From: Aeromicrobium stalagmiti
GTDB lineage: Bacteria > Actinomycetota > Actinomycetes > Propionibacteriales > Nocardioidaceae
Length of the DNA stretch: 64,000 bases
Direction: 5' to 3'
NCBI RefSeq assembly: GCF_013283745.1
Contig: NZ_JABSTZ010000001.1
Location: 1,258,406 to 1,322,405, forward strand
Part shown: positions 19,858 through 32,781 of the stretch, in pieces
How positions within the stretch are numbered: the first letter of the stretch is position 1
How the letters are laid out: each line of letters opens with the position of its first letter
The notes under the pieces: generated by a model
Told to the model about the DNA's origin: nothing
What the model saw: only the letters and a program-made list of their open reading frames with translations
The model's database searches: none
Program-made: the position numbers and the translations under genes

Positions 19858-20490
19858 ATGATGTTCAGACGGGTCCGCGGCATGGGGTCACAGGCCAACG
19901 CCGCAGCGGGTGGGTTCGCGTCGCGGGTCGACGGACAGTCGACCGAGGTCGCGGCGAGGGCCGCCCAGATGATCTCCGTGGCGGTGCGGCTGATGCGCAT
20001 CCCGACCGCGGTCGTCGGGTCGCTGCCCGTCCCGTTCGTGCTGATGACGCTGGTGCTGGGGGTCCTGGCCGACGGCGCCGTGGCGTTCGTCATCCTGGCC
20101 TTCGGGATCGTCATGCTGGCCGTGTCGGTCGCCTTCTGGGCGCGGCGGGCACGGGTCCTCGCCGCCGTCCGGGAGCCTGATCAGCTGGCGACCGAGCTCG
20201 CGATCATGATCAGCCTCACCGACAAGGTCGAGGAGACCCGCGGGGCGCTGTCGCAGATCGCCGGTGGCGAGGGGTGGCGCCTGCTCACCCGGCTCCGGGG
20301 GGTCTGGAAGGGCGCCACGATGACTGGCCGCTGGATCGAGGGCGTCGGAGACCTGCCGCGGGCGAAGTACTTCGGCCCGCCCAAGATCGGCACGAGCGTC
20401 ACGCTCACGGTGGCGGCGCTCTGGCTGGTGCCGATCTCGATCGTCGTCGCGCTGTTCTCGCTCGTCGGCACGATCGCCGGCTCGATCTAG
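19858..20490 (+). CDS. Hypothetical membrane protein
   Basis: A 210-residue protein of no family that I recognise. It has an amphipathic N-terminus (FRRVRGMGSQANAAAGG), a pair of membrane helices (about residues 55-100), a cytosolic alpha-helical middle containing RARVLAAVREPDQLATELAIMI, and one C-terminal helix (about 178-205). The start at ATG 19858 follows TACGAT by 6 bases; ATG at 19861 follows immediately. Its end overlaps by 4 bases with the end of the convergent 20487-22868 gene. Confidence 0.65.
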   Translation: MMFRRVRGMGSQANAAAGGFASRVDGQSTEVAARAAQMISVAVRLMRIPTAVVGSLPVPFVLMTLVLGVLADGAVAFVILAFGIVMLAVSVAFWARRARVLAAVREPDQLATELAIMISLTDKVEETRGALSQIAGGEGWRLLTRLRGVWKGATMTGRWIEGVGDLPRAKYFGPPKIGTSVTLTVAALWLVPISIVVALFSLVGTIAGSI

Positions 20491-22868
20491 GGAGCCAGCT
20501 CGGTCAGTGACGCCCGGGCGGCGTCGTCGAGGTCCGTGGCGCGGCGCCCTGCGTCGAGTGCGAACTGGGCCACCCGGCCGGCGAAGCGCGGATGGCCCTC
20601 CGCGGCGAGCCGGTGAGCCAGCTCCGACAACGCGGCGAAGTCGTAGGCGACGACTGCGCGGGCGAACGCCTGCCACACCGCCGGCGTGCCCGTCGGGTCG
20701 ACGACGTCGTCGACTGCGGCGAGCAGACGTGGCCCGATCCGGGGCCCGTCGATCAGCACGGCCACGCCGAGGGCGTCCACCTCGATCGTGAGCAGGCCGT
20801 GCTGGTGCGCCTCGTCGGCGAGGTCCTCGAGGATCTCGAGCGCCCGCTCGGGATCTGCCAGTGCGTCGTGGGCCAGGGCCTGCGCCAGGCGCCGGTCGAG
20901 GTCGTTCTGCCGTCGCTGGTGCACCGGATGCGCCTCGGACGAGGCGAGCAGCGCCGATGCCTCCTCGTGGCGCCCGAGGACGGCGAGCACGTGGGCCGCG
21001 ACGGCCTCGACCCAGCCGCGGAACCGCAGGGCGTCGCTCTCGGCGGACCGGGTCAGGAAGAGCTGGGCATTGGCCAGCGCCATGTCGGGGCGGCCGCGCA
21101 TCAGGGCCAGGAGGCCGGCCATGAGGAGCCCGAGTCGTCCGCCCAGCCCGTAGCGGACGCAGTGGGCCTGATAGCGGTCGAGGAGGTCCTGGCCGTCGTC
21201 GAGCTGCATGGCCGACAGGTGCGCCATGAACAGGATCTCGCGGACGGGGTCGATGAGGGCAGCGCTCGCGTCGATCTCGGGAGACTCCAGCATCGCCACG
21301 GCGATGCGTCCTGAGTGCACGGCCTCGGCGAGCCGGCCGGCATGGCGCAGCAAGGCGGCGAGCACGGCATGGGCCAGCGCCTCGTTGACGGGGGAGAGGT
21401 CGCCCGACAGGGTCCGCGAGCGCACCGTCCTGATCATCTCGGGGCTCGTCTCGGAGAAGGCGTCCGTGTAGAGCTCGGCGAGCTCGACCACGATCGTCCG
21501 GCGGCGCCGGGTCGGTGCGTCGTGGTGCGGCCCGACGGCGCGCTCCCGCAGCAGCTGTCGCTCCTCCTCGGTCACGATCCGGGTCGCCCAGCGCATCAGG
21601 TGCAGCAGCTCGTCCTCGGGCACCTGCGCGGGGTCCAGGGTGGCGAGCAGGGCGCGAAGACCGTCCAGGTCGCCCACCTGGATGAGGGCGTGGGCGCGCT
21701 CCTGCTGCGTCGTCAGCGGGTCCGCCGTCGTCCGGCCGGGCGCCGTGAACTCCACCGTGCGGCGGTACAGACCCCGTCGATTGGCCTCGCGCGCTGCCAG
21801 TCGCGCCAGCCGGGGACCCACGCTCACGCCGCTCGCCGAGCACCAACGGACCGTCCGGATCACGCTCTCGGGCCGGTGGATCGAGATCTCCAGCCGGTCG
21901 GCGTACGCGTGCCACAGCTCTGACATGCGGGCGGCTGACATCGCGGCCACCACAGCCTCGGCCTCCAGGGCGTCGAGCATCGTGAGGACGCCGTCACGTC
22001 GGCGCAGGGCGCCGTGGCGCACGGCGAACGCGATGACGGCAGGGTCGAGGCAGGCGGAGGCCTCCGTCGCGTCGACCTCGCCGATGAGCGCGACCAGGTC
22101 GACGAGCGTCACCGTCTCGGGACGCCCTCCGAGTCGCTCGGCCGAGAGCGGCCGCCGCCGGTGCGGCAGTGCCAGCCGGAAGGCCTCGAGGCGCTCGGGG
22201 TCGACCATGACCACCCCCTCGGCGCGGACGAGTGCACCGGCCTCGTCGAGCAGGTCACCGATGTCGCAGAGGCTGCCGTAGGACCCTTGGGAGCGTTCCT
22301 CCACGAAGCCGACGAGCACGTCGTGCGGGATCGCGCCGAGTCGCGCCCGGAGCAGACGCTCGATCGTCGTCCGGTCGAGGGGATCGAGGTCGACCCGCTC
22401 GGACATCGCCGCGAGGCGCGGGACGGCCGCCACGGCCTCAGGTGTCACGGCGAGCACGATCAACAGGTCGCGGGCGACGGCAAGGTCGGCCAGGACGTCG
22501 ATGCTCTCCTCGTCGGCGAATCCCGCATCGCCCAGCAGCAGGACGGGGCATGGCCCCTCCTGGGCGCGGACGAGCTCGGCGAGCGTCGAGGCGACCTGCT
22601 CGGGTGGCGTCGACGGATCGCCCCCGAGCGCCGCGAGCAGGCGAGCGACGGTGCGACCGGCCCGCTCGCCGTCGTCGTGACGGCAGGCGTGCTGCCACAC
22701 CACGCCGTCGGCGGTCTCCGCCACGGCACGGCCGAGGCGGTGCCGGTTCGACCCCGGGGCACCGACGATCAGCAGCACGCCGCGCCGCTCGAGCAGCGCA
22801 CGGGCCGCGTCGACGACATCGTCGGAGAAGGCGGGGGGCCACCGACGAGCGGCCTGGTGTGCATTCAC
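20487..22868 (-). CDS. HTH-less LuxR/MalT-like (STAND) ATPase-related protein, paralogue 1
   Basis: A 793-residue protein. The N-terminal ~220 residues have the layout of the ATPase domain of large LuxR-family regulators, followed by helical TPR-like repeats (about 300-780). The P-loop position reads VGAPGSNRHRLG (35-46), so the lysine and Ser/Thr of Walker A are replaced by Arg and His. The Walker B region is VLLLGDAGFADEES (near 110-123), again without the usual DD or DE pair. The family normally ends with a LuxR helix-turn-helix; here the protein stops straight after the helical region (DLDDAARASLTELAP). It is a paralogue of the next gene upstream, sharing blocks such as VDPTGTPAVWQ and the AGRRATDL ending. 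A regulatory or scaffold role is inferred; substrate and partner are unknown. Confidence 0.75.
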   Translation of the reverse strand: MNAHQAARRWPPAFSDDVVDAARALLERRGVLLIVGAPGSNRHRLGRAVAETADGVVWQHACRHDDGERAGRTVARLLAALGGDPSTPPEQVASTLAELVRAQEGPCPVLLLGDAGFADEESIDVLADLAVARDLLIVLAVTPEAVAAVPRLAAMSERVDLDPLDRTTIERLLRARLGAIPHDVLVGFVEERSQGSYGSLCDIGDLLDEAGALVRAEGVVMVDPERLEAFRLALPHRRRPLSAERLGGRPETVTLVDLVALIGEVDATEASACLDPAVIAFAVRHGALRRRDGVLTMLDALEAEAVVAAMSAARMSELWHAYADRLEISIHRPESVIRTVRWCSASGVSVGPRLARLAAREANRRGLYRRTVEFTAPGRTTADPLTTQQERAHALIQVGDLDGLRALLATLDPAQVPEDELLHLMRWATRIVTEEERQLLRERAVGPHHDAPTRRRRTIVVELAELYTDAFSETSPEMIRTVRSRTLSGDLSPVNEALAHAVLAALLRHAGRLAEAVHSGRIAVAMLESPEIDASAALIDPVREILFMAHLSAMQLDDGQDLLDRYQAHCVRYGLGGRLGLLMAGLLALMRGRPDMALANAQLFLTRSAESDALRFRGWVEAVAAHVLAVLGRHEEASALLASSEAHPVHQRRQNDLDRRLAQALAHDALADPERALEILEDLADEAHQHGLLTIEVDALGVAVLIDGPRIGPRLLAAVDDVVDPTGTPAVWQAFARAVVAYDFAALSELAHRLAAEGHPRFAGRVAQFALDAGRRATDLDDAARASLTELAP

Positions 22869-22943: not shown

Positions 22944-25361
22944 TCAGGTCCGGTCGACGTGGCGGTGCGACATGGGATCGGCCAGCTGCTGGAGGTGGGA
23001 CCGGGTGTCAGCATCGAGATCGGTCTTGCGGCGAGCCATGTCGAGCACGTACTGCGCGACCTCGGCAGCGAACAGGTGGGCACCACGCTCGTGCAGGTCG
23101 TCGGCAAGCTTTGCCAGGGCTGGGATGTCGTAGTCACGCGCTGCCCACGCGAAGCGCTGCCAGATCGCCGGAGTGCCCGACGGGTCGACGAGCCCGTCGA
23201 CGGCCTGCAGCAGCATGGGCAGGTGGGGCGGGCCTCCGATCTGCACGCTGAGGACCGCAGCGTCGATCTCGGAGAGGCGCAGACCGCGCTCGCGGGCCTC
23301 GTCCATCACCCCGGCGAGGATGACCAGGGCCTCCTCGGGCTCGGCGAGCGCGTCGTGGGCGCACGCCTGCGTGATCCGCCGCTCGAGGTCGTGCTGGACC
23401 CGGTCCGCCGGGTGGCTCGTCGAGATCTCGAGCATCTCGCGGGCCTCGTCCGGGCGCTCGACCTGGACGAGGATCTGGGCGAGCATGCCTTCGACCCATC
23501 CGCGGATCTGGTGCGGGTCGTGACGTCGAAGCCCCGCCAGGCAGAGGCGGGCGTTGACCAGGGCCTGCTGGACGTCGCCGCGGAAGAGCTCGAGCAGCCC
23601 CCGCAGCGCCGTGGTCATCCGTCCGCTGCCGGCGTGGCCGAAGATGCCCGAGGAGTAGGCCTGGATCGCTTGCTCGGCACCGGCCAGGTCGACGGCCGAG
23701 ATCAGGGCGAGGATCTGGCACTCGCGAGTGACGTCGAGGTGGAAGGCACTGACGGTCTCGGGGCACTGGAGCAGGATCTGCAGGGCGAACTCGGCCGACT
23801 CGACCGCCTGCACGGGGTGTCCTGAGTGCCTCTGCACCAGCGACAGCGCGGTGAAGGCCGCCGCCTGGTTGTGAGGCGAGAGCCGGCCGGAGAACGTGAG
23901 GGTGCGCAGCTGGTGGGTCAGCTCGTCCCCGCCCTCGAAGAACGCTCGCTCGAGCAGGCCGGCCAGCGTGTTCACGGCCGCGCGTCGCCGCGCCTCCTCG
24001 GGGTCTGTCGCCGCGATCGCCTGGTCCACCAGCCGTGCCCGGACCGGGCCGGAGGCGAGGCGAGAGGTCCATCGCAGATAGGGGAGCAGCTCGTCCTCGG
24101 TGAGCTCGCTCGGCTCCAGCGACGCGAACATCTCGCTCAGGGCGGTGGTGTCGCCAAGCTCGACCAGCGCGAAGGCGCGTTCGATGGGCTCGACGACGAT
24201 CCCCGACTCGTTGTGGTCGGGATGCGTGTAGACCAGGGTGCGGCGGTGACGCCCGGACAGGTTGGCCTCACGGGCCGCGCGCCCGGCCAGCTCGACCGGG
24301 AGGAGGCGTCCGGCGGTGCGCCACCAGTCGGCTGCGTGCAGGGCGACCCCCGGACGCTCGAGCGACGACGTCAGCACGCCGGCGAACCGGTCGAAGAGCT
24401 CGATCTGTCGCTCACGCGGCATGGTGCGCTGGACGAACGTCGACTCGGCCCGGGACGTGAACGCCAGTCCGGCCCCGAGCGTGCGCAGCGTGCCGTGACG
24501 CAGGGCGCCGTCGATCGTGTCGTCGTCGAGGTGGCGCCGCGCCTCCTCGAGGTCGAGCTCACCCAGCAGCGCGGTCAGGTGGATGACGTCGCTGACCGCG
24601 TCGCCGCCTCCCAGTCGTTCCACCACGGGGGGTGCCCAGAGGCCGGCCAGCCGGTCGGCCGTGGCGGCGGAGCCGGCAGGGTTCACGACGAGGACGCCCT
24701 CGACGGGAACGATCATCCCGGAGTCGAACGCGGCGTCGCTGACCTCGCGGATGACGCCGTAGGAGCCCTCGGTGCGCTCGACGAGCAGCTCGACGACGGT
24801 CGGGTGTGGTGCTGCTCCGAATCGCAGCCGGAGCAGCTCGCTGATGGTGGGACGGTCCAGCGGCGGGATGTCGATGACCTCGGCGACCGACAGCAGTCGC
24901 TGCTGCTCGGAGACGGTCTCGGGCGTGAGCGTGGCGATCAGGCGGATGTCGCCCGTGGCGGAGAGACGGATCAGCACCTCGATGCTCTCGGGATCACACA
25001 GGTCGGCGTTGGCGATGATGAGCACCGGCGCGACCTCGACGAGGCCGCGCAGGATCTGTCGGACTTCGGCCTCGGCCGTGTGGACCGTGTCGGTGTGGTC
25101 GAGGTGGAGGCCGGTCAGCAGCTGCTGCACGGCGAAGAAGCGCAGGTCGTCCTCGCCGAGACGTGCGACGTGCCGGGTCCACACGGGGCCCTCCGGCACT
25201 CCGGCGACGTCGGCAGCGAGGCGGTTGCGGCTCCCGCCGAGCGGGCCCACGATGACCAGCACCGACCGGCGCTCGAGGAGCTGTCGGGCCTGGGAGATGA
25301 ACGCGGCCGAAAACGGAGCCGGCCATGGGCCAGCCGGCTTCGCGTTCCTCGGTTCCGACAT
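22944..25361 (-). CDS. HTH-less LuxR/MalT-like (STAND) ATPase-related protein, paralogue 2
   Basis: An 805-residue paralogue of the adjacent downstream gene, with the same order: N-terminal FSAAFISQARQLLERRS, degenerate P-loop VGPLGGSRNRLA (38-49), Walker B region VLIIANADLCDPES, then helical repeats and a matching end (VDPSGTPAIWQ, MARRKTDLDADTRSHLQQL). It too lacks a C-terminal helix-turn-helix. Key ATPase residues are missing in both copies, and in different ways (GSNRH against GSRNR), which suggests independent drift after loss of ATP hydrolysis or a changed nucleotide site. The start has a 30-base leader with AGAAGAGCGG. It is divergent from the decapeptide-repeat gene. The 75 bases between the two paralogues hold a TAGCCT-type -10, so the second may also be transcribed alone. 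Confidence 0.75.
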   Translation of the reverse strand: MSEPRNAKPAGPWPAPFSAAFISQARQLLERRSVLVIVGPLGGSRNRLAADVAGVPEGPVWTRHVARLGEDDLRFFAVQQLLTGLHLDHTDTVHTAEAEVRQILRGLVEVAPVLIIANADLCDPESIEVLIRLSATGDIRLIATLTPETVSEQQRLLSVAEVIDIPPLDRPTISELLRLRFGAAPHPTVVELLVERTEGSYGVIREVSDAAFDSGMIVPVEGVLVVNPAGSAATADRLAGLWAPPVVERLGGGDAVSDVIHLTALLGELDLEEARRHLDDDTIDGALRHGTLRTLGAGLAFTSRAESTFVQRTMPRERQIELFDRFAGVLTSSLERPGVALHAADWWRTAGRLLPVELAGRAAREANLSGRHRRTLVYTHPDHNESGIVVEPIERAFALVELGDTTALSEMFASLEPSELTEDELLPYLRWTSRLASGPVRARLVDQAIAATDPEEARRRAAVNTLAGLLERAFFEGGDELTHQLRTLTFSGRLSPHNQAAAFTALSLVQRHSGHPVQAVESAEFALQILLQCPETVSAFHLDVTRECQILALISAVDLAGAEQAIQAYSSGIFGHAGSGRMTTALRGLLELFRGDVQQALVNARLCLAGLRRHDPHQIRGWVEGMLAQILVQVERPDEAREMLEISTSHPADRVQHDLERRITQACAHDALAEPEEALVILAGVMDEARERGLRLSEIDAAVLSVQIGGPPHLPMLLQAVDGLVDPSGTPAIWQRFAWAARDYDIPALAKLADDLHERGAHLFAAEVAQYVLDMARRKTDLDADTRSHLQQLADPMSHRHVDRT

Positions 25362-25479: not shown

Positions 25480-26208
25480 ATGGATCTTCGCGGAGTCGCC
25501 CTGTTGCCCCTGCGAGTCACGGTGGCTGCCACCCAGGCGACCCTGGGTCTGGGCCAGCTGGCCTCGCCCAACGGTCCGATCCTGCGCGAGGGCGGCTACG
25601 CGACCCGCTTCGCACAGCTGTTCGCCGAGGGTGGACTGCTCGATCAGCTGGCCAGGATCCTCGCGGACGAGCGGGGGCCCATCGGGCTGGCCAACACCTT
25701 TGCCGACCTCACGTCGGACGACCGGCCGATCGGCAAGGCGCTGGCCCGCGACGGCCTGCTGGACCGCATGGCCGACGAGGACGGCCCCTTCGTCCGGCTG
25801 CTCGAGGCCGGAGGACCGCTCGACCGGGCACTGTCCGAGGACGGTCCGCTCTACCGATTCCTCGCGCCGGGCGGCCCGCTCGACCGGTTGCTCGCCGAGG
25901 AGGGCGCGCTCGACCGGGTGCTGGCCGAGGACGGGCTCCTCGAGCAGCTGCTGGCTGACGACGGCATCCTGGAGAAGCTCCTCGCGCCGGGCGGCACCCT
26001 CGACCAGCTGATCTCGCTGGGGGCGACGTTCGACGCGATCGTGCCCCGCCTCGAGGCCCTCGGGCACGCGATCCCCACCCTCAACAGCGCGGTCACGGTG
26101 CTCAGCGGTGCGGTGGAGCCGCTCGGTGCCCTGGCCGGACGTCTTCCGGGTGGACGGCGCCGACCCGCGGTCGAGCCGTTCGTCACTGCCGCGCCCGACG
26201 TGGACTGA
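25480..26208 (+). CDS. Protein built of tandem 10-residue repeats, unknown function
   Basis: A 242-residue protein. From residue 31 to 190 the sequence runs in an exact 10-residue register. The best copies are residues 91-180, nine consecutive units of the form [D/G]-G-x-L-[D/E]-x-L-L-A-[E/P], for example DGPLYRFLAP, GGPLDRLLAE and DGLLEQLLAD. Each unit has an acidic/glycine turn then a short amphipathic helix. N-terminal residues 1-30 are hydrophobic (VALLPLRVTVAATQATLGLGQL), and the C-terminus has another amphipathic stretch (LNSAVTVLSGAVEPLGALAG) and a basic RRRP. It may pack as a helical solenoid or bind a membrane or storage surface. I do not recognise the family. It has a leaderless promoter, and a 54-aa gene follows 3 bases after its stop. 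Confidence 0.7.
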   Translation: MDLRGVALLPLRVTVAATQATLGLGQLASPNGPILREGGYATRFAQLFAEGGLLDQLARILADERGPIGLANTFADLTSDDRPIGKALARDGLLDRMADEDGPFVRLLEAGGPLDRALSEDGPLYRFLAPGGPLDRLLAEEGALDRVLAEDGLLEQLLADDGILEKLLAPGGTLDQLISLGATFDAIVPRLEALGHAIPTLNSAVTVLSGAVEPLGALAGRLPGGRRRPAVEPFVTAAPDVD

Positions 26209-26211
26209 GCC

Positions 26212-26376
26212 ATGATCGACGTCCCGCAGACCCGCAGCAACCGTTTCTCGCGGCTGCCGGCTCGCGTGCGGCTCGAGGACACCGTCACCTCCTGCGACAC
26301 CGAGCCGGTGCCCGACCCCGAGGGCGGCCGCGACACCGACCGTGACTTCCTGATCCGCTACGGCTTCGGCCTCTGA
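26212..26376 (+). CDS. Small hypothetical protein (54 aa)
   Basis: This ATG-initiated frame begins 3 bases after the stop of the decapeptide-repeat gene, so it is probably translated with it. The predicted 54-residue protein is polar and acidic: basic near the start (TRSNRFSRLPARVR) and Asp/Glu-rich afterwards, with one Cys and the ending RDFLIRYGFGL. Codon third positions are strongly G/C, in keeping with coding. No known family is visible. Confidence 0.55.
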   Translation: MIDVPQTRSNRFSRLPARVRLEDTVTSCDTEPVPDPEGGRDTDRDFLIRYGFGL

Positions 26377-29898: not shown

Positions 29899-32781
29899 CT
29901 ACTTGCGGGTGCCGGTGACCGTCAGCTGGTGCGTCATGTCGGCGGTCGAGGTGCCGCTGAGGCGGACGTCGACGGCGATGCGGTTCTTGCCGTCGCGCAG
30001 CAGCGACAACGGGATCTCGAACGTCCACGCCTCGCCGACCGCTGCTGACGTCGACACGGCCGAGTCGGCCGGGACGACGCCTGCGGTGACCCGCCTGCGC
30101 TTGACCTCCTCGCCGTTGACCATCACCACGGCCCCGTCGTCGGCGCGGGTGCTGACGATGATCCTGGAGTAGGCCGAGACGTCGTCGATGTCGAGCGATC
30201 GCCGGAAGTAGGCACGCTCGACTCCGGCGGGCCGGGCCAGCGACGTCTGCAGCCCCGGTGCCCCGAAGCCGAGGGGAGCCTGGCCGTAGGTCCAGCCGGC
30301 GTCGTCGGTGCTGGTCTTCCAGTCGGAGGCGGGGGACGGTGACTGGAACCAGTAGGCCCAGTAGGCACTTGAGCCGATCAGCGTGGTCGTGCCCGCCGAC
30401 GTGGCCGCAGCGGTGACGGCTGAGGTCGAGGCCGAGCGGTTGCCCACGCCGTCGGTGGCGCGGACGAAGAAGCGGTCACCGGCCGCGGAGTCGCTCACCG
30501 TGACCGACGTGGCACCCGGGTCGGCGATCTCGACGACCTTGCCGTCTCGGAGGATCTCGTAGGAGACGCCGCTGGTGGCCGACGCCGTCCACGACACCGT
30601 CGCGGTGGAGCCGGACACCGACGCACGCGGGCCGGTGGGGGCGGCGGGCGGGGTGTGCGGGCGCATCGCGAAGCGGACGAAGCCCTGCGTGACCTGGGCG
30701 GAGCCGTCGCGGCCCACGACGCTCTGGTAGTCGCCGCCTGCCCACAGGGTGCCGTCGCTGGCCGACAGCAGGGCCCACGGCCCCTCGCCGTTGCGCATCT
30801 TCGACGTCGGCGCGAACTGCGGGTAGTAGGCGCCGGTCGCTGCGTTCCACGCGCCGAGGTAGCCGATGCGGTCGACCTGGGTGTAGCCCGAGGCGCGCGG
30901 CGAGTCGTAGCGCGAGGTGCCGCTGTAGTTCCAGTTGTTGCAGTGGCAGGAGCCGTAGACGACGCCGCCCTGGGCCGCCGTCGCCTGCAGGTCGCCACCG
31001 CTGAGCGTGATGTTCTTGGCCGACAGGCCCAGGCTCGACGAGGTGTAGGAGAAGAAGCTGTGCTGGCTGCCACCGAGCCAGACCCGGCTGCCGACCCGCT
31101 TGACGGTCTGCTGGTACCGGTTGCGCGGGGCGGACGTACTGGACTTCACCGACCACGACTGGAAGGTCGCCGGTGTCGACGTCTTGATCGCTGCGGCTCC
31201 CGGCTTGGACACCGCCGACCTGCCGTCGTCGCCGACGTAGCCCTGCTGGAACTGGCCGGCGGCGTAGACCCGGGAGCCGTCGTCGGAGACGTCGAGCGAC
31301 AGGACGCTCGAGCTCAGGGACCGCTTGCCGTTGGACTGGACGATGCCCGAGCCCAGGTTGGGTCGCCACCCGGTGCTCGGTGCCCCGGTGGCGGCGCTGA
31401 CACGCAGGATGTTGCGAAAGGAGTAGCTCTTGCTGCTCTTGCCGCCCTTGTAGCTGGTGAAGCCGCCGCCGACGTAGAGGTGGGAGCCCGAGACGTCGAG
31501 GGCGCGCACCCAGCGCTTGGCGCCCTTGGTGCCCTGGCCGATCGTGGCCTTGAAGCCGGAGTAGCGCGCGCCGGTCGTCGCGCTGACGACGACCAGGCCG
31601 GTGGCAGCCTTGCCGTCGAGGGTGGAGAACTCGCCGCCGACGGCGAGCCGCCCGTTGGGCAGCGCTGCGAGTGCCTTGACCTGGTTGTTGAGTCGCGGCC
31701 GGAACGACGAGATCCACTGGCCGCTCGTCGCGTCGAACGCAGCGAGATAGGGCTGGCTCGCCGACGCGCTCCCGTCGGAGCGGCGAACCGTGGTGAAGTT
31801 GCCGCCGACATAGACACGGTTGCCGATCTGGGCGAACGCCGAGACCTCGGTGGCGTAGTAGAGCGAGCCGCCCTTGCCGAGACCGGTGACGCCCCACGGC
31901 TGGGGGAGCGCGCCCGACTCGGGGATCGCCGGTGCGGCCTGGGCGGGGGTGCCGCTCGCCGGCACGGCCGGGTAGGTCATCGAGGACGTCAGGGTCCGGG
32001 GACGCAGCCAGACCCGGGTGAACGGTGAGGCGTACTGACCGCCCGCGACGGTCGAGTAGAGATAGCTCGAGTCGCTCGTCGATCCCGCGGGGCCGTTCTT
32101 GCCGTAGAGGAAGCCGCGGACGTAGTTGTTGGTCGACGTGTTCGCCGTCCAGGTGCGCTGGGAGTCCGAGCCGATCGTCAGGTCGCGGGTGTACTGGGAC
32201 TTGGCGGTGGTGGTGCCGTTGACCGAGTAGGACGAGACCGGGATGCCGGGGTCGGCGGCAAGCGCCCACGTCCAGCGGTCGCGGGACTTCAGCCGGATCC
32301 GCACCTCCTGGTAGGCCGTGCCCGCCTGGTTGGTGGCCCGTTGGAGCCGGATGCCGTCGGCGAGGCCGTCGACCCGGCCGCCACCCAGCAGGGCGTCGAT
32401 CGTCCGACCGGGCAGCTGCTTGGCGTAGAAGGCTGACGGCCCCGAGACGGGGGAGGCGACCGACGTCGTGCTGCCCCGGCCGTCGCCGCCCTCGACCCAG
32501 CCGTGGCGACCCCGTGCGACCAGCACCCAGCCGCCGCCGTCGGTGGCCTGGTCGCAGTAGAAGCGGGTCGGCGCCTGCAGCTGGGGGGTCACGAGCCAGT
32601 ACTGCCCGCTGCCGCCGTCGGGATCGTTCTTCTTGACCTCCCAGCACGAGGCGGCCGCGCGCTCGGGCGAGCTGCCGTCGTGGACGACGGCGGCCTCGGC
32701 GGGGGAGCCGGCGACGGCCACGAGGGTCACCGATGCGACTGCGGCCGCCACGAGGCTGGCGATGCGGGCACGACGAGTCAT
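29899..32781 (-). CDS. Large secreted fibrinogen-like / beta-propeller / Fn3 protein
   Basis: A 960-residue secreted protein. Signal peptide residues 1-~30 (VAVAGSPAEAA). About 35-290 is a fibrinogen-C-terminal-like domain: SCWEVKK, then RFYCDQATDGGGWVLVARG, the hallmark YCD...GGGW pattern. About 320-700 is a beta-propeller of repeated VYVGGNFTTVRRSDGSA and VGGEFSTLDGKAATG units (delta-60/DUF5122-type). About 715-800 is a fibronectin type III domain (PPAAPTGPRASVSG...), and 810-960 is a jelly-roll-like C-terminal domain with WTFEIPLSLL. It is presumably extracellular and may bind glycans or surfaces. The start is placed at the signal-peptide ATG; the open frame runs on upstream but that part is antisense to the next gene. 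Confidence 0.85.
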   Translation of the reverse strand: MTRRARIASLVAAAVASVTLVAVAGSPAEAAVVHDGSSPERAAASCWEVKKNDPDGGSGQYWLVTPQLQAPTRFYCDQATDGGGWVLVARGRHGWVEGGDGRGSTTSVASPVSGPSAFYAKQLPGRTIDALLGGGRVDGLADGIRLQRATNQAGTAYQEVRIRLKSRDRWTWALAADPGIPVSSYSVNGTTTAKSQYTRDLTIGSDSQRTWTANTSTNNYVRGFLYGKNGPAGSTSDSSYLYSTVAGGQYASPFTRVWLRPRTLTSSMTYPAVPASGTPAQAAPAIPESGALPQPWGVTGLGKGGSLYYATEVSAFAQIGNRVYVGGNFTTVRRSDGSASASQPYLAAFDATSGQWISSFRPRLNNQVKALAALPNGRLAVGGEFSTLDGKAATGLVVVSATTGARYSGFKATIGQGTKGAKRWVRALDVSGSHLYVGGGFTSYKGGKSSKSYSFRNILRVSAATGAPSTGWRPNLGSGIVQSNGKRSLSSSVLSLDVSDDGSRVYAAGQFQQGYVGDDGRSAVSKPGAAAIKTSTPATFQSWSVKSSTSAPRNRYQQTVKRVGSRVWLGGSQHSFFSYTSSSLGLSAKNITLSGGDLQATAAQGGVVYGSCHCNNWNYSGTSRYDSPRASGYTQVDRIGYLGAWNAATGAYYPQFAPTSKMRNGEGPWALLSASDGTLWAGGDYQSVVGRDGSAQVTQGFVRFAMRPHTPPAAPTGPRASVSGSTATVSWTASATSGVSYEILRDGKVVEIADPGATSVTVSDSAAGDRFFVRATDGVGNRSASTSAVTAAATSAGTTTLIGSSAYWAYWFQSPSPASDWKTSTDDAGWTYGQAPLGFGAPGLQTSLARPAGVERAYFRRSLDIDDVSAYSRIIVSTRADDGAVVMVNGEEVKRRRVTAGVVPADSAVSTSAAVGEAWTFEIPLSLLRDGKNRIAVDVRLSGTSTADMTHQLTVTGTRK

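Follow-up and report, generated by a model that had tools for sequence, protein, structure and literature searches.

The window, the whole stretch of 64,000 nucleotides from Aeromicrobium stalagmiti analyzed here, encodes a protein with a tandem repeat of ten residues (decads), the parts of which are listed in Table 1. The gene has a third-position GC content of 0.885, compared with 0.90-0.93 in three neighbouring genes, and an antisense ORF also spans the region. It is under purifying selection: whole-gene comparisons with six Aeromicrobium orthologs gave dN of 0.09-0.12 versus dS of 0.59-1.0, corresponding to dN/dS values of about 0.1-0.2.

Table 1. Coordinates of the decad-repeat gene, the parts of its product, and the adjoining ORF.
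Feature	Position in window	Strand	Basis
Decad-repeat protein gene, 242 aa	25480..26208	+	ORF from ATG, coding composition, dN/dS, orthologs
Segment at the N-terminus, aa 1-29, with a predicted helix at 9-28, one conserved proline, and few charged residues	25480..25566	+	Alignments A1, A2, A6
Variable linker, aa 30-80, isolated decad at aa 51-60	25567..25719	+	Alignment A6 and decad scoring
Ten decads, aa 81-180, DRPIGKALAR to GGTLDQLISL	25720..26019	+	Decad scoring, aa 91-150 model, length rule
C-terminal module, aa 181-242, with VxPLxxLAxRxP motif, basic tail, and a long predicted helix	26020..26205	+	Alignments A5, A6
Conserved 54-aa ORF directly downstream of the decad gene	26212..26376	+	Comparison of loci

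The N-terminus of the protein is apolar with small polar residues (alignment A1), and the helix predicted there is drawn only by a low-confidence full-length model. The long helix of the C-terminal module is likewise a low-confidence prediction. A large part of the linker is missing from the mycobacterial relatives described below. An initial reading of the DNA from its letters and ORFs (the sequence-only reading) had described the repeat as flanked by hydrophobic ends; these are only moderately hydrophobic, and the protein has no transmembrane segment, the maximum 19-residue hydropathy being 1.41.

In the window and in several other Aeromicrobium loci, the neighbours of the decad gene are the 54-residue ORF, a gene for an OYE-type oxidoreductase or a ferredoxin-reductase-like protein, and purL. 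The product of the small ORF contains the pattern RLEDTxTxxxTxPVPDPxGxRDxxRDFLIRYG and is matched by neither Pfam nor NCBIfam at E≤1. Because it adjoins the OYE or ferredoxin-reductase-like gene in other loci, it is probably functionally unrelated to the decad gene. Upstream, on the minus strand, lie two tandem paralogs of about 800 residues (20487-22868 and 22944-25361) with 36% identity over 448 aligned residues (L001); by eye they have a P-loop-like start, no Pfam match was obtained at 1e-3, and several Aeromicrobium loci likewise have one or two copies upstream of the decad gene. A further large protein is encoded on the minus strand at 29899-32730, and its start, CDQATDGGGWVLVARG, may resemble a fibrinogen-related domain.

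The ten-residue repeat and its length rule

The ten-residue repeat is real. At a lag of ten, the window protein has 53 identities, whereas 2000 shuffles gave a mean of 22.8 (sd 4.2) and a maximum of 38; the highest shuffle value for any lag from 2 to 30 was 44. Within the core, the fraction of identical residues is 0.46 at lag 10 and only 0.07, 0.12, and 0.11 at lags 7, 9, and 11, respectively, which agrees with the distinction from heptads and 11-mers drawn in the sequence-only reading. Individual units were scored with a decad profile consisting of rows from relatives of the mycobacterial family (f7) only, the row make-up of which was checked. With this profile, the ten units starting at residues 81, 91, 101, and so on to 171 reach p values from 7.5e-4 down to 1.1e-5, and the isolated unit at 51-60 reaches 2.6e-4, whereas those at 31, 41, 61, 71, 181, and 191 are unremarkable (p 0.039-0.94). 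The strict array therefore comprises ten units over residues 81-180 rather than sixteen over 31-190; from the longer array that had originally been proposed, these ten units and the lone one at 51-60 are retained and the remainder is lost, and the nine units that had been singled out as similar were recovered at 91-180. Among relatives, the decads follow the consensus [DG]-G-[PL]-L-[DE]-R-L-[LT]-A-[EP], and their logo is close to identical between 371 decads from Nocardioidaceae and 218 from f7, both groups being pure. A clear superperiod of decads, such as three per turn, was not found among 8 representatives.

Length changes of the core follow the same unit. Core length was taken from the entry motif DxPxG to the conserved proline of the C-terminal module, with one anchor pair throughout. 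From 149 loci, 15 were excluded beforehand, namely a second locus of the window gene itself (L083), weak or non-family loci (L084, L085, L099-L101, L103), and short or decayed ones (L142-L149). The 134 remaining loci were read, 11 had no anchor match, and the 123 others yielded 75 distinct cores. Lengths of 97, 107, 117, 127, 137, 147, 157, or 207 residues were found for 73 of these, drawn from two bacterial orders, and the remaining two were one residue below a step; since the 75 cores are related and low redundancy leaves 8 representatives, the rule rests on fewer than 75 independent events. Eight of the 11 loci missed by the anchors could be measured with looser ones, and all eight (five distinct cores) obey the ten-residue rule; in the other three (L051, L102, L141) one anchor is absent. 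When looser anchors were applied to 55 distinct cores, 33 of 35 and 18 of 20 fell into the register of their own group. Other anchor variants gave 38 distinct cores, with 26 loci lacking an anchor, or 76 distinct cores with mixed values, the latter because one expression matched two different prolines. Insertions and deletions in the core thus occur almost only as whole decads across two orders, and the number of decads in measured members ranges from 9 to 20.

Distribution of the family and its conserved ends

The window protein has no match in Pfam or NCBIfam at E≤1, and 12 aligned members gave only weak matches to these collections (E 0.004-0.1). The candidates among them (RHA1_ro05818_N, DASH_Dad2, BAT, pantothenate kinase, and others) were rejected; for seven of the 12 members, the Pfam candidates covered short stretches and stayed under the curated cut-offs. 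Judged by sequence comparison, the protein is assigned to an undescribed family of Nocardioidaceae and Mycobacteriaceae. With the protein as query, 52 of 197 genomes of the same bacterial family contained relatives at E≤0.01, three of which depend on weak matches (E 0.002-0.006). A profile built from Nocardioidaceae rows only (A2) matched 49 of 394 genomes of the class at E≤0.001, including six weak cases from families f17 and f21 (E 9.5e-6 to 8.1e-4). Within Aeromicrobium, the distribution is patchy, with matches in 25 genomes (in G153 at no better than 0.002) and none in at least 20 others.

The family is nearly universal in one genus of f7 (g44), which is read as Mycobacterium because the PhoP protein of one of its genomes (G369) matches the M. 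tuberculosis PhoP chain 3r0j with 512.8 bits. Here, 145 of 148 genomes have a match, as do all 136 genomes with at least 90% completeness and at most 5% contamination, two of these with decayed pieces only. In the order to which this genus belongs, 32 of 200 genomes match, distributed over 7 of 60 genera; a named member is a 352-residue protein of Tsukamurella tyrosinosolvens. The two exceptions within g44 are reduced genomes with contigs of about 3.27 Mb, in which the gene is represented by broken pieces (L144-L149) and looks decayed: six pieces were found at E≤1, the two weakest at chance level, and two contain stop codons. No phoP with more than 75% identity lies within these short loci.

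The link between the two orders is provided by the repeat and by the ends. The decads agree in register and consensus, the ten units of the window protein scoring under the f7-only profile, and A2 in turn matches f7 members through the C-terminal module, e.g., over profile positions 4-251 or 86-251, the matches extending to positions 249-251 of 254. A further profile (A5) mixes rows of both lineages, which makes a search for the shared C-terminus circular, and A2 was relied on instead. In the alignment of the C-terminal module, f7 rows are 31-41% identical to the window protein. Both ends of the protein are conserved between the two orders as aligned in A6, with P10, A16, L22, P189, V212, P214, R221, and P223 being invariant or near-invariant. 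The C-terminal profile also gave weak matches (E 3.8e-7 to 4.1e-4) to G758 and G892, which are genomes of other classes, and to a second gene of G369. Alone among these, the locus in G758 (L099) encodes a similar C-terminal ending, SVEPLSRLADKLPGSSRR, and it has no decads.

Similar repeats outside the family were also considered. A Sulfitobacter plasmid protein (L103:2092-5268, P0003) shares the ten-residue period and the DG-L pattern in decads of the type GDDGLVGGLL, but it is a Gly-rich protein of 1058 residues that lacks both conserved ends and is encoded two places from a TolC-family gene; its repeat probably arose independently. With a cut-off of E≤0.1, five of the 12 aligned members match phrog_22415, a phage family whose function is not known; the strongest of these matches (2.1e-6) covers the repeats of L082, and the only PHROG match of the window protein is phrog_32330 (0.048). 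A phage origin gained no support from viral sequences: 27 pattern hits for A2 in viral contigs yielded no confirmed relative, and none of three members tried was matched by a phage record.

Genomic surroundings and the Rv0756c site

No neighbour is common to the loci of all lineages, and the context differs from lineage to lineage. In 10 of 13 Nocardioidaceae genomes examined outside Aeromicrobium, the decad gene adjoins a gene for a class I methyltransferase. Of 45 g44 genomes with an intact-looking decad gene at the examined locus, 41 have it divergent from phoP with 60-156 bases between the aligned ends, the loci being mostly the best-scoring ones and not a random sample of the 145 matching genomes. 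Four of the 45 (G489, G542, G1097, G465; L071, L104, L109, L110, L112) carry the decad gene without an adjoining phoP, and the gene is therefore separable from PhoPR.

Judged by synteny, the mycobacterial decad gene occupies the place of M. tuberculosis Rv0756c. The relatives at this site resemble the window protein in their decad logo, in the DxPxG motif at the entry, and in the VxPLxxLAxRxP motif, and differ from it in the N-terminal 80 residues and in the number of decads. According to the consulted portions of PMC4038636, Rv0756c and phoP share a PhoP ChIP peak, and the expression of Rv0756c is hardly altered by a phoP mutation (ratio -1.24, H37Rv vs. phoP mutant). An excerpt of PMC9637126 reports an IS6110 copy inside Rv0756c in one isolate, so that disruption of the gene may be tolerated. 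In the parts consulted of PMC3552959 and PMC8912993 the gene is only listed, and across the same portions of all four papers it is mentioned just incidentally or as a table entry. Among the papers listed by literature searches, none dealt with the function of the family or with a bacterial helical decad family.

Predicted structure and interpretation

The full-length AlphaFold2 model is poor (pLDDT 42.3, pTM 0.23; alignment of seven close sequences) but still draws a short helix per decad and a long C-terminal helix. For a fragment of six decads (residues 91-150, 60 residues), a confident model was obtained (pLDDT 87.9, pTM only 0.57), which may be favoured towards regularity by its alignment: of the 15 rows, all fragments from the window or from Aeromicrobium, MAFFT had placed 8 two or four decads off the native register. 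The predicted helices span fragment residues 3-7, 13-18, 23-28, 33-38, 43-49, and 53-59, i.e., 5-7 residues per decad plus a loop. The turn followed by a short amphipathic helix that the sequence-only reading had envisaged is thus reproduced in the fragment, with helices at about decad positions 3-8; the regular structure that had been sought by prediction appeared with confidence at this scale and not in the whole chain. Four consensus helices of eight residues are amphipathic, with moments of 0.47-0.63. Helices this short are unlikely to be stable alone, and those of the decads would therefore need packing; on the basis of the model, the decads probably stack into a solenoid.

No PDB chain was found for the fragment with Foldseek at E≤10, although the short query weakens such a miss, and BFVD returned only three poor Foldseek matches (E 4.0-9.8). 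Matches in a search of PDB sequences were at chance level (E 0.58-1.6). The supposition that the repeat belongs to no known family has thus held within Pfam, NCBIfam, PDB sequences, and Foldseek against the PDB, and the profile search that had been proposed as a check led to no described family but to a wide undescribed one. Among known repeat architectures, the alpha-solenoids of the TPR, HEAT, and Armadillo types consist of tandem helical units that stack into a rod, as expected for the decad protein, but each of their units has two or three helices in about 30-45 residues. A two-helix alpha-solenoid of this kind was rejected, given a unit of ten residues with a single short helix and the missing Pfam (E≤1) and Foldseek-PDB matches. 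RTX calcium-binding repeats, which are nonapeptides (GGxGxDxLx) forming a beta-roll, resemble the decads by eye in the spacing of GG and D/L; they were dismissed on the low lag-9 identity, the helical model, and the lack of a Pfam match.

The evidence is best accounted for by a cytoplasmic short-helix solenoid rod that would serve as a spacer or adaptor, probably at the inner membrane, and this explanation is put forward tentatively. The protein would be a non-secreted modular rod. Every decad would contribute a single short helix (P/L-L-D-R-L-L) that ends in a Gly-Gly or Asp-Gly turn. Neighbouring helices would stack via Leu 4, 7, and 8, leaving Asp 5 and Arg 6 surface-exposed, and the number of decads would set the length of the solenoid. 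The helices at the two termini, both conserved and the C-terminal one bearing a basic tail, would be the functional ends, one of them most likely located on the inner face of the membrane, and the protein would hold two partners at a set distance.

The main rival to a rod is a coat on a lipid surface, comparable to phasins and perilipin-type proteins, in which a membrane or lipid droplet would be covered by the N-terminal helix, the decads, and the C-terminal helix alike, the amphipathic helices being broken by Pro and Gly. The amphipathic moments, the apolar N-terminus with its small polar residues, and the whole-chain model without a confident fold are in line with such a coat. However, residues 81-180 carry a net charge of -11 in the window protein (-11, -8, and -10 across three members), a charge that makes a role like that of 11-mers on an anionic membrane less likely, the unit is strictly ten residues, and the window protein matches none of the curated families; a lipid coat is accordingly rated as unlikely. 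The continuous 11-mer lipid-binding helix itself, which along with phasin-type helices shares amphipathicity and an apolar N-terminus with the decad protein, was rejected on the period of ten, the Gly/Pro breaks, and the acidic repeat region, with low lag-11 identity and fragment-model helices broken every ten residues. Less probable still is a self-assembling filament or oligomer scaffold, in which rods would join laterally or end to end via their Leu faces and the number of decads would tune assembly. The decads are alike and their number shifts by whole units, as in a structural polymer, but it is the two ends and not the unit number that are kept between lineages, which suggests end-specific partners.

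It also appears quite improbable that the protein has a role specific to its neighbours, as an accessory of PhoPR in mycobacteria and of the methyltransferase in Nocardioides-like bacteria. The frequent adjacency to both genes speaks for such a role; against it stand the four g44 genomes without an adjoining phoP, the location of the Aeromicrobium gene beside other genes, and the small expression ratio of Rv0756c despite the shared ChIP peak. A disordered spacer, or one of low complexity, that adopts no fixed fold, or alternatively an artefact arising from GC-rich sequence, might explain the low full-chain pLDDT and the antisense ORF over the region, but is highly improbable in view of the low dN/dS, the confident fragment model, the match in every well-completed genome of one genus (two of them decayed), and the agreement of nearly all cores with the length rule. 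Mere chance or GC bias was rejected on the excess of lag-10 identities over shuffles together with dN/dS and the length rule.

The protein may represent a new class of tandem-repeat folds, with one short helix per ten residues, near-universal in mycobacteria, and usually encoded beside PhoPR, a proposal that is advanced with caution. A unit of about 30 residues is usually considered necessary for a helical solenoid; to our knowledge, no other all-helical solenoid with a ten-residue unit has been described, and this one would be the smallest such unit. A ten-residue unit that changes its copy number as a whole would provide a new design module for repeat proteins, and a near-universal mycobacterial protein of unassigned function becomes directly testable in species that are harmless.
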